Of a stretch of 64,000 nucleotides of DNA, positions 22,444-53,751 are shown one piece after another. The notes under the pieces are model-generated. The model was not told the origin of the DNA and made no database searches. It saw only the letters and a program-made list of their open reading frames with translations. Every line of letters starts with the position of its first letter. The first letter of the stretch is position 1. Position numbers and translations under genes: made by a program. Location of the stretch: assembly GCF_033126985.1 (NCBI RefSeq), contig NZ_AP024714.1, positions 1,178,001 to 1,242,000 on the forward strand, read 5' to 3'. The stretch is from Methylomarinovum caldicuralii. GTDB taxonomy: Bacteria > Pseudomonadota > Gammaproteobacteria > Methylococcales > Methylothermaceae.

Positions 22444-22938
22444 TTACGCCGTCCGGATCGGAATTCGGCGGCTGAGATGGCCGCTGGCCTTGGGCAGCAC
22501 CAGGGTCAGCACCCCGTTGCGGTAGCGGGCCTCGGCGCGGTTTTCGTCCACCGGCACCGGCAGGGGGATGGCGCGTTCGAAGGCGCCGTAGGCGCGTTCC
22601 AGCAGATAATAGTGGCCGCCGCTTTCCTCCCGTTCCGCCAGTTTCTCGCCGCGCACCACCAGGGTGTCGCCGACGATCTGAATGTCGAACTGATCCGGCT
22701 CCATGCCGGGGATTTCCATCCGTACGATCAATTTGTCCTTTTCTTCCTTCACCTCCGCAGGGATCAGGCCCCAGCGGGAAGCATCGGCCATCAGCTGCTG
22801 CTCGGGGCCGTCGCCCCGGCGGTGGTGAGCAAAGCGGGTCAGGGCGTGGCCGGCGCGCTCCTTCAGTTGCTGCCAGCCTTCGGCAAGGGATGCCACGGCG
22901 TGCTGGATGCCGTGACGCAGCTGTTCCAGGGTGCTCAT
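22444..22938 (-). CDS. Hsp20/alpha-crystallin small heat-shock protein
   Basis: A 164-residue chaperone that binds unfolding proteins and keeps them soluble. The alpha-crystallin domain runs from about residue 60 ([17 protein letters not shown]) through DTLVVRGEK to [13 protein letters not shown], the A-x-x-x-n-GVL signature. A C-terminal IPI (RRIPIRTA) matches the I-x-I oligomerisation motif. The N-terminal 50 residues are helical. Its ATG at 22938 has GGAGAATG upstream. The gene converges on higA with a shared terminator. Confidence 0.93.
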
Positions 22939-23063
22939 CTGTCATTCTCCTCAAGTTCGTTGATGGATGGCCGAGAGATTGTACCGGTATGGCCGGAAAT
23001 CTGCCGGGTTTTGACTATGCTTGTTGTCATAGCGAGATTGAACTTCCCAACGAGGTAAAAAAG

Positions 23064-24803
23064 ATGAACTGGAATTCCGTCGGCATGCGCCTGGTGTTCG
23101 TGGTCTTTGGACTGATCCTCACGGTATCGGTGGTGTTGTTATGGATGTATGCCAGACAGCAGCGCGAGGCGGCCATCGCATCCGAGGTGCGCATGGCCCA
23201 GAACGTGATCGAGACGGCGGAGGCGGCCACGGATCAGATCGCCAGGCAGTGGGAAATGGGGATTTTCAGCCCGGAAATGCTGCGCCAGTTTACCGCCCTG
23301 CCCGGGGACGAGGCCAAACAGAAAATTCTTGCCACTGTGCCCATCGTCAACGCCTGGGAGATGATTCGCAAAAACTCCGCTGCCAACGGCTACCGCCTGC
23401 GCACCCCGCGCCACAACCCCCGCAACCCCGCCAACGCGCCTGACGCCCTGGAGGCCGAGGCGCTGGCCTATTTCAAGCAGCACCCGGAGGCTCAGGCTTA
23501 TCAGGTGGTGGACGAGAAAACCAACACCCTGCATTATTTCCGCCCGGTGCGGCTGCAACAGCAATGTCTGGTCTGCCACGGGGATCCGCGCAATTCCCTG
23601 GCGCTGTGGGGGCGCGACGACGGCAAGGACGTTCTCGGTTATCCGATGGAAGGCAAAAGGGCCGGCGATCTGCACGGCGCTTTCGAGATCATCTCTCCCC
23701 TTGACGACAGTGATGCCGTCATCGCCGCCAACCTCTGGAAGGCAATCGGCCTGATCGGGCTGGCGGCGCTGCTGGTGGGCGGCAGCCTGTTTTTCACCGC
23801 CAAACGCATGGTTGTCGAGCCTCTCACCCAGCTGGGGCTGAAGCTTCAGGATATCGCCGGCGGCAGCGGCGATCTCACCGCCCGCCTGGAGGTCAAGGGC
23901 AACACCGAGTTCGCCTGGATCGCACACAGCTTCAATCAGTTCGTCAAGAAGCTGCGCAACACAGTGTTGACGGTGCAGGACTCGGCCCATAATCTGGCCC
24001 AGGAAAGCGAGAATCTTCATAAAGTGTCGGCCGAAACCGGCGAGCGGGCAACCTGCCAGCGCGGGGAGATCCAGCACCTGGTGACGATGATGGAGCAGAT
24101 GTCGGCCGCGGTTCAGGAGATCGCCGAGAATACCGCGAAGGCGGCGGAAAACGCGCAGGCGACCGACCAGGAAACCCAGGCTGGCCGGCAGGTGGTGCTG
24201 GCGGCGATCGAGAAGATCGACCGGCTGGCCGTGGAGGTGGACAAGGCAGCCCAGGTGCTCAAGGAGCTGGAGAAGGACAGCGACAGCATCGGCGAGGTGC
24301 TGAAGATCATCGGCGACATCGCCGATCAGACCAACCTGCTGGCGCTGAACGCCGCCATCGAAGCGGCCCGGGCCGGGGAGCAGGGCCGGGGCTTTGCAGT
24401 GGTGGCCGAGGAGGTCCGCACCCTGGCGAGCCGGACCCAAGAATCCACCGCCGAGATCCAAAGCACCATCGAACGCCTGCGCAACCGCGCCCGTCAGGCG
24501 GTGGGCGTCATCGACCAGAGCAAGGAACAGGCCCAGGCCAGCAAGGAGGAAGCCCACGGTGTCAACACCGTGCTGGAAAGCATCACCCGGATGATGAACG
24601 ATGTGCGGGAGATGAACACCCAGATCGCCAGCGCCGTCGAAGAGCAGAGCATGGTGAGCGCTGAGGTCAGCCGGAACGTCGCCGGCATCAGCGAAGGCGT
24701 GGAGGAAACCTGCGCCCGGATGGAGGAAACCCGCCAGGCGGTCGCTTCCCTGCGGGAAGACGCCGAAAATCTCAATCAGGCGGTCAATCAGTTCCGTACC
24801 TGA
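23064..24803 (+). CDS. Methyl-accepting chemotaxis protein with heme-c motif (DUF3365/Tll0287-like sensor)
   Basis: A 579-residue transmembrane receptor. Membrane helices are at ~8-28 ([17 protein letters not shown]) and ~225-245 ([17 protein letters not shown]). The periplasmic sensor carries CLVCHGDP with Cys168, Cys171 and His172, a classic CxxCH c-type heme site in a DUF3365-like fold. A HAMP domain follows at ~246-300. The signalling tip is [20 protein letters not shown] (about 418-437), with flanking helical heptads and candidate methylation sites. It probably senses redox, oxygen or a gas through heme and signals to CheA/CheW. The ATG at 23064 has GAGGT 7 bases upstream, and the longer frame from 22890 is not needed. 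Confidence 0.92.
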
Positions 24804-24825: not shown

Positions 24826-24852
24826 AAAGGCCGGGGGTTCCCCGGCCTTTTT
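24826..24852. terminator. Rho-independent terminator between MCP and cbpM
   Basis: An 11-base-pair stem AAAGGCCGGGG / CCCCGGCCTTT with a GTT loop and following TT. It can serve both the receptor gene and, reading the other way, the cbpM transcript. Confidence 0.8.
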
Positions 24853-24854
24853 CG

Positions 24855-25145
24855 TCAGCGCCGGGTGCGGCGCAGTTCCTCCAGCAGATCCAGCACCAGG
24901 GCGGCGCCGGGAGGATTGACCCCCAGGTCCTGCGCCAGCCGCAGAGCGGTGCGCAGGCGCTCGAAGGCGACGGCGTCGAACCACCACTGGGTCGGTTCCG
25001 GTCCGCCCTGGGGTTCGAGCACGCCCTGATCCACCAGCTCGATCACGCGTTCGGCGCTGACCTCGAAGATCCGGCACACCTCCACCAGGGTGATGCGGAA
25101 GTTCTCGTCCAGGATCACGCCCGTGAAAACCTTTTCCTGCAGCAT
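24855..25145 (-). CDS. cbpM: CbpM-type chaperone modulator
   Basis: A 96-residue MerR-fold-like helical protein. FRITLVEVCRIFEVSAERVIELVDQGVLEP is the signature, followed by WWFDAVAFERLRTALRLAQDL. CbpM binds the J-domain of CbpA and restrains its co-chaperone activity. It lies 3 bases after cbpA on the same strand, the standard pair. It ends at the stem-loop at 24826. Confidence 0.9.
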   Translation of the reverse strand: MLQEKVFTGVILDENFRITLVEVCRIFEVSAERVIELVDQGVLEPQGGPEPTQWWFDAVAFERLRTALRLAQDLGVNPPGAALVLDLLEELRRTRR

Positions 25146-25148
25146 CGC

Positions 25149-26099
25149 TTACACCCCCATGCCTTGACGCGGGTTGAACGGCATCTTGCGGGCCATCTCC
25201 TCGTAGAAGCGCTTCTTGTCCTCGGTGTCCGCCGGCGGGGTGTGGATCTTGAGGATCACGTACTGATCCCCCGCAGGCGTCCCCGGAAGCCCCTTGCCCT
25301 TGAGGCGCAGTTTGCGGTCGGTCTGGGAACCGGGCGGAATCCTCAATTCCACTTTGCCTTCCAGGGTCGGCACCGGCACCTTGGCGCCCAACGCCGCCTC
25401 CCAGGGGGTGACGGGCAGGTCCAGGTAAATGTCCTTGCCCTCCACCTTGAACCAGCGGTGGGGCTTGAAGTGGACCTCCAGATACAGATCCCCGGCAGGT
25501 CCTCCGCCCATGCCCGGGGCGCCCTGGCCGGCGAGGCGGATCTTCTGGCCCTCGCGGATGCCTTTGGGGATTTTGACCTGCAGACGCTTCTGCTTGTCCA
25601 CCAGGCGGCCGGTGGCCGGATCGACCTCCGGCACGCTCAGGGTCAGGGTCTGGGTGGCGCCGCGATAGGCATCCTCAAGATCGATGTAAACCTTGGCGTG
25701 CAAGTCTTCCCCCCGCATGCGGAATCCGCTCCGGGCCCGGCCGCGGCGAAAGCCACCGCCCCCGAAGAGCGCCTCGAAGAATTCGCTGAAGTCGGCGGTC
25801 CGGCCCCCCTCGGTGTAGCCCCCGCCGCCGAAGCCGAACTGTTCCTCCCAGCCCGGCGGCGGCTGGAACCCCTGACCTTCCTTCCAGTGGGCGCCGAACT
25901 GGTCGTAAGCCTTGCGTTTTTCCGGGTCCTTGAGGACTTCGTAGGCTTCGTTGACTTCCTTGAACTTCTCCTCGGCGTCCGGCTCCTTGCTCACGTCCGG
26001 ATGGTACTTGCGCGCCAGCTTGCGGTAGGCGCGCTTGATCTCGTCCTGGGAGGCATCCCGGGAAACCCCCAGGATTTTGTAATAGTCCTTGTATTCCAT
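25149..26099 (-). CDS. cbpA: CbpA-type DnaJ co-chaperone
   Basis: A 316-residue DnaJ-class protein. The J domain covers residues 1-70 ([28 protein letters not shown] with the essential HPD tripeptide). A Gly/Phe-rich linker ([17 protein letters not shown]) follows, then two C-terminal substrate-binding domains ([31 protein letters not shown]). There is no zinc-finger cysteine cluster, which separates CbpA from DnaJ. It works with DnaK, and in E. coli also binds curved DNA. The operon with cbpM confirms the assignment. Confidence 0.95.
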
Positions 26100-52197: not shown

Positions 52198-53751
52198 ATG
52201 CGCGTCAATTTGCCTGTAACCGGCCGGGAAGTGGCTCTTCCGGAGAAAGATTTGGTGTCCGCCACCGACCTCAAGGGCCGGATCACCTATGCCAACGCCG
52301 CCTTTGTCGAAGTTTCCGGTTTCGAAAAGGAGGAGCTGCTCGGCAAGGCGCACAATATCGTGCGCCATCCCGACATGCCGCCAGCCGCTTTCAAGCAAAT
52401 GTGGGATCATCTCAAGGCAGGGCGTCCCTGGATGGGTATCGTCAAGAACCGCTGTAAGAACGGGGATCATTACTGGGTGGACGCTTTCGTCGCCCCGGTG
52501 GTGGAGAATGGCCAGCTGGTTGGTTACGAGTCGGTACGTACCCATCCCAAGCCGGAATGGCGCGAGCGGGCCGAGCGTCTGTATACGCTCATGCAGGCAG
52601 GGCGTTTCCGCAACCGCCGGCGTCTGGCGCTGGCCGATCGATTGACTTTGGCTGTCGCCGCCGCTTTGCTGCCGGTCAGTGCAGCTTTGCAGTGGGGCAG
52701 CCCCGTCTGGGGCTGGAGTGCGTTGGTGGGATCGATCTTGACGGTACACCTGCTGTGTCGGCGCCTGCTTGATCCCTTGGTTCGGGTAGTGGAGTGGTCC
52801 CGCCGCTTCAGTGATGATCCGGTCGCCAATCTGGTTTATGCCGGACGGGCGGATGAAGCCGGCCAATTACAGACCGCCTTGCTGTCACTCGAAGCCAGAC
52901 TCCGGACGCTGCAAAGCCGTTTCGAGGACATGGCGGAAGCGGTGGCGGACCGCGCAGGCCGGAACCATCGGGTGGCAGAGGAAACCACACAGGTCCTGGA
53001 CAAACAGCAGGAAGACACGGAAGCACTGGCCCGGGCGATCGAGGAACTCAACCAGACGATTCATAGTATCGCCGCCAGTGCCACCCAGACGTCCGATTCG
53101 GCAGATGACGCCAGTGCAGCCGCACGTGACGGAATGCAGACCAGTCAGGATACCGCCCAGGAGATTACCGCCCTGGCAGACAGTGTGGCGCAGGCGGCGG
53201 AGGTGATTCAGACGGTCAAGAAGGAGGGGGATGATATCGGCATGGTCGTGGGAGTCATCCGCGACATTGCCGACCAGACCAATCTACTGGCGCTCAATGC
53301 CGCAATCGAAGCGGCGCGGGCTGGGGAACAGGGGCGCGGGTTTGCCGTGGTGGCTGAGGAGGTGCGCAAGTTAGCTTCTAGCACCCAGGAATCCACTCAC
53401 CGAATTCAGCAATTGGTGGAGAACCTCCAGCAAGGCATTCAGGAAGCCGTCGAGGTCATGGAATCCGGTTGCGAACGGGCCCGCGGCAGTGTTACCCGGG
53501 CAGAAAGTGCCGGTGACCGTTTGAGCCAGGTGGCTGACCGTATCGATCTCATCAAGACCATGAGCTTGGAAGTGGCCGGAGCTGTGGAGCAGCAATCCTG
53601 TGTGACCGACGAGATCCGCCACAGTGTCGAGCGCATCAGTACGACCGCCGACCGGGTGGCCCGGGATTCGGGCATGGCAGCCGCTGCCGCCAATGAACTG
53701 CTGCAGCTGGCCAGTGGATTGCGCGATCTCGCCCGTCGCTTCGCCGCCTGA
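52198..53751 (+). CDS. PAS-containing chemoreceptor, Aer-like
   Basis: A 517-residue receptor. The PAS domain (residues ~10-120) has the Aer/BdlA pattern: [36 protein letters not shown] and [15 protein letters not shown], the common PAS with FAD or heme. Hydrophobic segments at ~155-190 ([18 protein letters not shown]) anchor it, as in Aer. The MCP tip is [20 protein letters not shown] (about 355). It has no large periplasmic domain. Likely an energy- or redox-sensing receptor; FAD binding is inferred. [12 protein letters not shown] at 52198 has AAGGAG upstream; the longer frame from 52171 is not needed. Confidence 0.92.

Follow-up and report, generated by a model that had tools for sequence, protein, structure and literature searches.

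A probable heme-c Cache chemoreceptor of Methylomarinovum caldicuralii and a methionine loop that marks its branch of the family

We found that the methanotroph Methylomarinovum caldicuralii encoded a chemoreceptor that belonged to the published c-heme Cache family, so that the heme reading of this protein was not new, and that the sensor domain of such receptors carried a methionine-containing loop (Met loop) that went beyond the openly readable literature on heme-Cache proteins. Good confidence could be placed in the explanation that accounted best for the material as a whole, namely a single-Cache heme-c receptor in which a redox change or NO would cause ligand exchange at the heme and act through the HAMP domain on CheA. 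The observations behind this explanation were the domains of the receptor, its heme-attachment motif, conservation and predicted fold, and the heme-attachment, CheA and flagellin genes of the host. The sequence analysed (the window) was a stretch of 64,000 nucleotides (contig NZ_AP024714.1, positions 1,178,001 to 1,242,000), to which the coordinates below refer unless a locus is named.

The receptor gene occupied positions 23064..24803 (+ strand), and its translated frame comprised 579 aa with recognizable Pfam domains. A Shine-Dalgarno-like GAGG was read in the sequence 8 bases upstream of the ATG at 23064 (23052..23055, +). The program-made list of open reading frames began this frame at ATG 22890, but the Pfam domains started at residue 36 of the shorter, 579-aa form. 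The gene was flanked by a diverging Hsp20 gene (22444-22938, -) and a converging CbpM-like/DnaJ pair (24855-26099, -), and a G+C-rich inverted repeat with a T run (24827..24853) was probably a terminator common to the receptor and the converging CbpM-like gene. Around the closest orthologue (L007 of genome G009; 88% identical, 508/579), the Hsp20 and CbpM-like genes kept their flanking places and DnaJ lay outside that locus.

The protein had the layout of a methyl-accepting chemotaxis protein, with two transmembrane segments and with HAMP and MCPsignal matches above their cut-offs. Hydropathy placed the first transmembrane helix at about residues 9-28 (23088..23147, +; hydrophobic stretch of about residues 3-32) and the second at about residues 218-246 (23715..23801, +; hydrophobic stretch of about residues 218-247). 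Between them, Pfam, AlphaFold, Foldseek and VIA pointed to a Tll0287-like or sCache_heme sensor domain, formerly DUF3365, at residues 36-212 (23169..23699, +), and its match to PF11845 (Tll0287-like) reached 100 bits against a cut-off of 24.1. Pfam further assigned a HAMP domain to residues 248-298 (23805..23957, +) and an MCPsignal domain to residues 388-543 (24225..24692, +; 141 bits). Since hydrophobic stretches flanked it on both sides, the sensor domain would be periplasmic in the usual receptor topology.

The sensor contained the heme-c attachment motif CLVCH at residues 168-172 (23565..23579, +), with His172 as the putative proximal ligand, and the translation agreed exactly with the numbering Cys168, Cys171 and His172 given in an earlier note on this DNA. 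The note had set the motif next to DUF3365-type sequence; that domain was indeed present, but the CxxCH lay inside it as its defining motif. Any CxxCH at all appeared in 49 of 100,000 shuffles of the receptor protein, and the real motif fell inside the Pfam Tll0287-like match. A scan of named genomes, whose query was an alignment of 16 receptor sensors and whose patterns did not contain CxxCH, yielded 105 relatives, and each of the best 80 of them kept the motif (80/80 loci); 76 of these loci had no other Cys in the sensor domain and 4 had one. The earlier note would have given up covalent heme if CxxCH were missing from most close homologues; this was not the case, all 80 loci retaining it. 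Moreover, the motif was present in the matched frame of 31 of the 32 loci from the own and related genomes, the exception (L028) stopping at a contig end, and in 59 of 59 additional rows of a phylum sample. PF11845 was matched in 8 of the 9 other genomes of the genus, and no relative was found in the plasmid collection.

The only other Cys residues of the receptor, 331 and 550, were both cytoplasmic. Three Cytochrom_C_asm matches were identified in the genome, CcmF and CcmC among them; CcmC, CcmE and CcmF all scored over their cut-offs, and CcmE was located between CcmF and CcmC. Given the strictly kept CxxCH and these host genes, it was very likely, judging from sequence, that the periplasmic sensor carried covalently bound heme c, as the earlier note had proposed. 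No published spectrum or heme stain was found for this receptor or a close relative.

The AlphaFold model of the sensor domain (55 aligned sequences) had a mean pLDDT of 96.6, and its predicted fold was of the Cache type seen in 5b82, the solved heme protein Tll0287 of Thermosynechococcus. This entry was the best Foldseek match (E 5.8e-8), and VIA-align gave it Z 14.7 with an rmsd of 3.1 over 151 residues, the next entry reaching Z 8.3. Tll0287 shared the CxxCH as well, but it is a stand-alone protein with Cys/His ligation according to the available text of a 2026 preprint (PMC12889525), whereas the receptor was a membrane protein with Pro93 at the Cys column. As far as the accessible part of that preprint goes, it describes the DUF3365 family under the names sCache_heme and heme-Cache and reports CxxCH conservation of at least 99%, receptor fusions included. 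One signalling-type protein of the family that lacks the axial Cys bound NO tightly and formed no stable oxygen complex, a stand-alone member with Cys/His ligation behaved as a redox protein, and the authors assigned the signalling-fused members to NO sensing (PMC12889525). The receptor resembled this family in its Pfam match to PF11845, its CxxCH, its predicted periplasmic domain, its HAMP and MCPsignal domains and its lack of the axial Cys; it differed from the kinase, GGDEF and soluble stand-alone rows by carrying the extra Met loop.

GSU0582 and GSU0935 of Geobacter sulfurreducens (3b47, 3b42) likewise combine a heme-c sensor with two transmembrane segments, a HAMP domain and an MCP part, according to the accessible text of PMC8396549, but they were far from the receptor in sequence. 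A PDB search with a clade profile, allowing E values of up to 10, did not recover their structures, and Foldseek placed 3b42 at E 0.02 against the sensor model. Both proteins bind CO and NO, and their spin state and sixth ligand change with the redox state (PMC8396549). DcrA of Desulfovibrio vulgaris (1994), the first c-heme receptor by the available accounts (PMC8396549, PMC13401364) and compared here by its description, is also a periplasmic heme-c chemoreceptor but additionally has a cytoplasmic PAS domain (PMC8396549). Thus, a heme chemoreceptor was not the unusual find that the earlier note had taken it for, being preceded by DcrA, by solved c-heme chemoreceptor sensor structures since 2008 (3b42) and by the heme-Cache preprint.

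The Met loop was located downstream of the CxxCH, with the pattern D189...G192...M195 (23628..23648, +), and its conservation made Met195 a candidate sixth ligand. All 81 aligned rows of the close set had Met at the Met195 column; conservation in this set was partly selected because one of the two scan patterns contained Met. In searches that did not select for anything after the CxxCH, a D...M-E/D loop was present in all 37 receptor rows and in none of 30 kinase or 7 GGDEF rows, the architecture of each row having been assigned by short motifs rather than full domain scans. These rows came from the 32 loci of the own and related genomes and from 109 phylum rows among the matches listed (29 loci, 20 hand-picked mainly by open-frame length and 60 further); L189, whose segment showed no domain, and L028, which had no CxxCH frame, were left out. 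The loop also occurred in 3 of 39 short frames (L188, L216, L235) and in 4 of 25 unclassified rows, two of which (L006, L156) were cut before any output domain, while the other two (L173, L196) ended at a stop.

A tree built with the sequence only up to the CxxCH placed the Met-loop rows (71 rows) on one side of a single branch with support of 99/92; it covered 107 of 111 rows, L003, L029, L031 and L032 having been dropped, and did not include L188, L196, L216 and L235. One origin of the loop was therefore sufficient. By the same relatedness, the 37 of 37 receptor rows counted as one evolutionary event and not as 37. The five short proteins (L173, L188, L196, L216 and L235) were membrane proteins of 261-363 aa in which a Met-loop heme domain lay between two hydrophobic helices; their frames stopped soon after the second helix and contained no MCP or signalling domain. 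L173 grouped among the receptors in a tree, which suggested that short loop proteins of this type might be derived or shortened receptors. The loop thus marked the receptor branch, yet it was not confined to full receptors, and the five short proteins weakened the wording "receptor-specific" but not the proposal of Met195 as a ligand. No mention of the Met loop was found in the openly readable literature, which covered the main text of the preprint PMC12889525 and the titles listed by literature searches.

The candidate sixth ligands differed by architecture class. In stand-alone relatives, the column of Pro93 (23340..23342, +) was Cys in 8 of 10 rows, and by analogy with Tll0287 this Cys was likely their distal ligand; in Met-loop rows it was Pro in 71 of 72 cases, the remaining row having a gap. 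We counted distal Cys by alignment, not by a positional window, because the spacing varied. With Pro93 at this place and no further Cys in its periplasmic part, the receptor fell outside the stand-alone Tll0287 redox subclass. A Met three residues beyond the Pro93 column (NPAYM-like) was found in 8 of 18 HK/GGDEF rows and was invariant in the 10 GGDEF/kinase rows chosen for alignment A4. Two other residues of the receptor were considered and rejected: His204 was kept in 77 of 81 rows of the close set but was replaced by Arg in nearly all phylum-sample receptor rows and was thus no general ligand, and an upstream Met ligand of the kind used by GSU0935 would have to be one of Met44, 65, 72 and 100, none of which reached 90% conservation among the close relatives.

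It may be that the heme-Cache classes take their sixth ligand from different places, namely from a helix Cys in the soluble stand-alones, from the nearby NPAYM Met in the GGDEF/kinase group and from the Met of a separate loop, gained once on their branch, in the chemoreceptors and a few short two-helix membrane proteins. The loop Met would then be a purpose-built, displaceable ligand by which a heme redox protein became a switch for chemotaxis; we offer this scheme tentatively and regard it as rather doubtful. The loop Met offers a single-residue handle on what sets receptors apart from the stand-alone and kinase members of the family, a question not taken up in the available text of PMC12889525, with its one stand-alone protein and one HAMP protein, or in that of PMC8396549, with the two Geobacter domains.

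Separately, kinase-type and related Tll0287 domains (L133, L137, L140 and L142; L128-L130, L134-L136, L138 and L139) varied at the distal column, which was either PAHA, in 3 of the first 4 rows, or S-rich with neither Cys nor Met. These columns hinted at further variants of the sixth ligand.

In the preferred mechanism of ligand exchange, the periplasmic single-Cache domain would hold one heme c through Cys168, Cys171 and His172. With no Cys available for the sixth heme site, ligands could be exchanged there, and a change in heme oxidation or the binding of NO would alter the sixth ligand and thereby the fold around the heme. The signal would then travel via the second transmembrane helix and the HAMP domain to the signalling hairpin and to the activity of CheA, which was encoded once in the genome, about 5.7 kb before the start of the window. 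CheA activity would set flagellar switching, with a swimming response to a stimulus that we take to be heme redox state or NO. Two flagellin matches were present in the genome, and both Methylomarinovum species are described as motile by a polar flagellum in the available text of PMC10950024.

The reading of the stimulus that survived best was a redox switch, although we rate it somewhat below an even chance. Namely, Met195 would bind the reduced iron opposite His172, oxidation or NO would displace it, and the resulting loop movement would be the signal. The distribution of the loop over the architectures, its position on one side of one branch of a tree built without it, and the lack of any upstream Met with 90% conservation among the close relatives are consistent with such a role. 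A similar device is described in the accessible text on GSU0935, where Met60 is a ligand of the reduced heme and gives way to NO, to CO or upon oxidation (PMC8396549). However, Met60 lies upstream of the CxxCH and Met195 after it, so that the two positions are not homologous; moreover, the conserved Met may be structural, and the loop also occurred in the five short frames of 261-363 aa.

A structural role of Met195 is what the next reading assumes. Here the receptor would be an NO sensor whose sixth site was occupied by water or was empty, as in the Pseudomonas azotoformans protein of the preprint. The missing axial Cys and the published assignment of signalling-fused members to NO sensing (PMC12889525, available text) favour this possible but unlikely alternative; on the other hand, a single signalling-type protein was tested in the preprint, and the words "Met" and "methionine" did not occur in its main text. 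The genome also contained a PF13447 match of 507 bits, which we took as hydroxylamine dehydrogenase. Hydroxylamine dehydrogenase yields NO, and an enzyme of this type is a possible endogenous source of it. The gene is reported for both species, M. caldicuralii IT-9 and M. tepidoasis IN45, and nirK and norBC are reported for IN45, in the available text of PMC10950024. Denitrification genes were not evident in the genome of M. caldicuralii. For NirK, none of three partial matches scored above 45 bits, the cut-off being 296. PF02239 (NirS type) was matched in part five times (two ~323-aa frames), with scores no higher than 37 bits; four of these matches exceeded the cut-off of 25.5, and every one was shorter than the full profile. 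Neither of the two COX1-type proteins of the genome had a NorB model among its NCBIfam matches.

It was improbable that the receptor served as an oxygen sensor for aerotaxis. For DcrA, oxygen or redox potential has been proposed as the stimulus (PMC13401364, PMC8396549, as far as available), and an aerobic methanotroph would profit from positioning itself with respect to oxygen; on the other hand, the tested family members formed no stable oxygen complex in the accessible text of PMC12889525, and the genome encoded a separate Aer-like receptor. Finally, although the fold class also includes cofactor-free ligand-binding receptor domains, it is very improbable that the CxxCH is not hemylated and that a small ligand is bound instead, as in ordinary Cache domains, given the strict CxxCH conservation, the heme protein as top structural match and the heme-attachment genes.

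The Aer-like receptor was found where the earlier note had placed it (52198-53751), with an N-terminal PAS_3 domain and MCPsignal. The best NCBIfam model for its PAS region was NifL, below the cut-off of that model. The note had counted two distinct energy-type sensors in the cell; the two kinds, heme and Aer-like, were both present, but the number was too low. Namely, the genome encoded five MCPs: two with heme-Cache sensors, one Aer-like with PAS, one with CZB and one without a Pfam sensor over the cut-off. The second heme-Cache chemoreceptor (L002 1396-3135, G000:C1 ~2245602-2247341) had the motif CMICH and was 48.5% identical to the first overall and 54% in the sensor. Thus, this methanotroph devoted two of its five chemoreceptors to putative periplasmic heme sensing, which recalls the two Geobacter receptors, whose potentials differ (PMC8396549, available text).

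Two further loci of the same genome deserve mention. A second heme-copper oxidase subunit I (L122 603-3389, G000:C1) scored far under the cut-offs of all matched NCBIfam models and was adjoined by a CuA-type subunit II-like protein and a cytochrome c; it could be an unusual oxidase or perhaps an sNOR-like NO reductase. A stand-alone Tll0287-type gene (L003 ~1150-1788, G000:C1 ~2690450-2691090) was split over two frames, the distal-Cys motif being in one and the CxxCH part in another, so that either the gene was broken or the split reflected a sequencing error.
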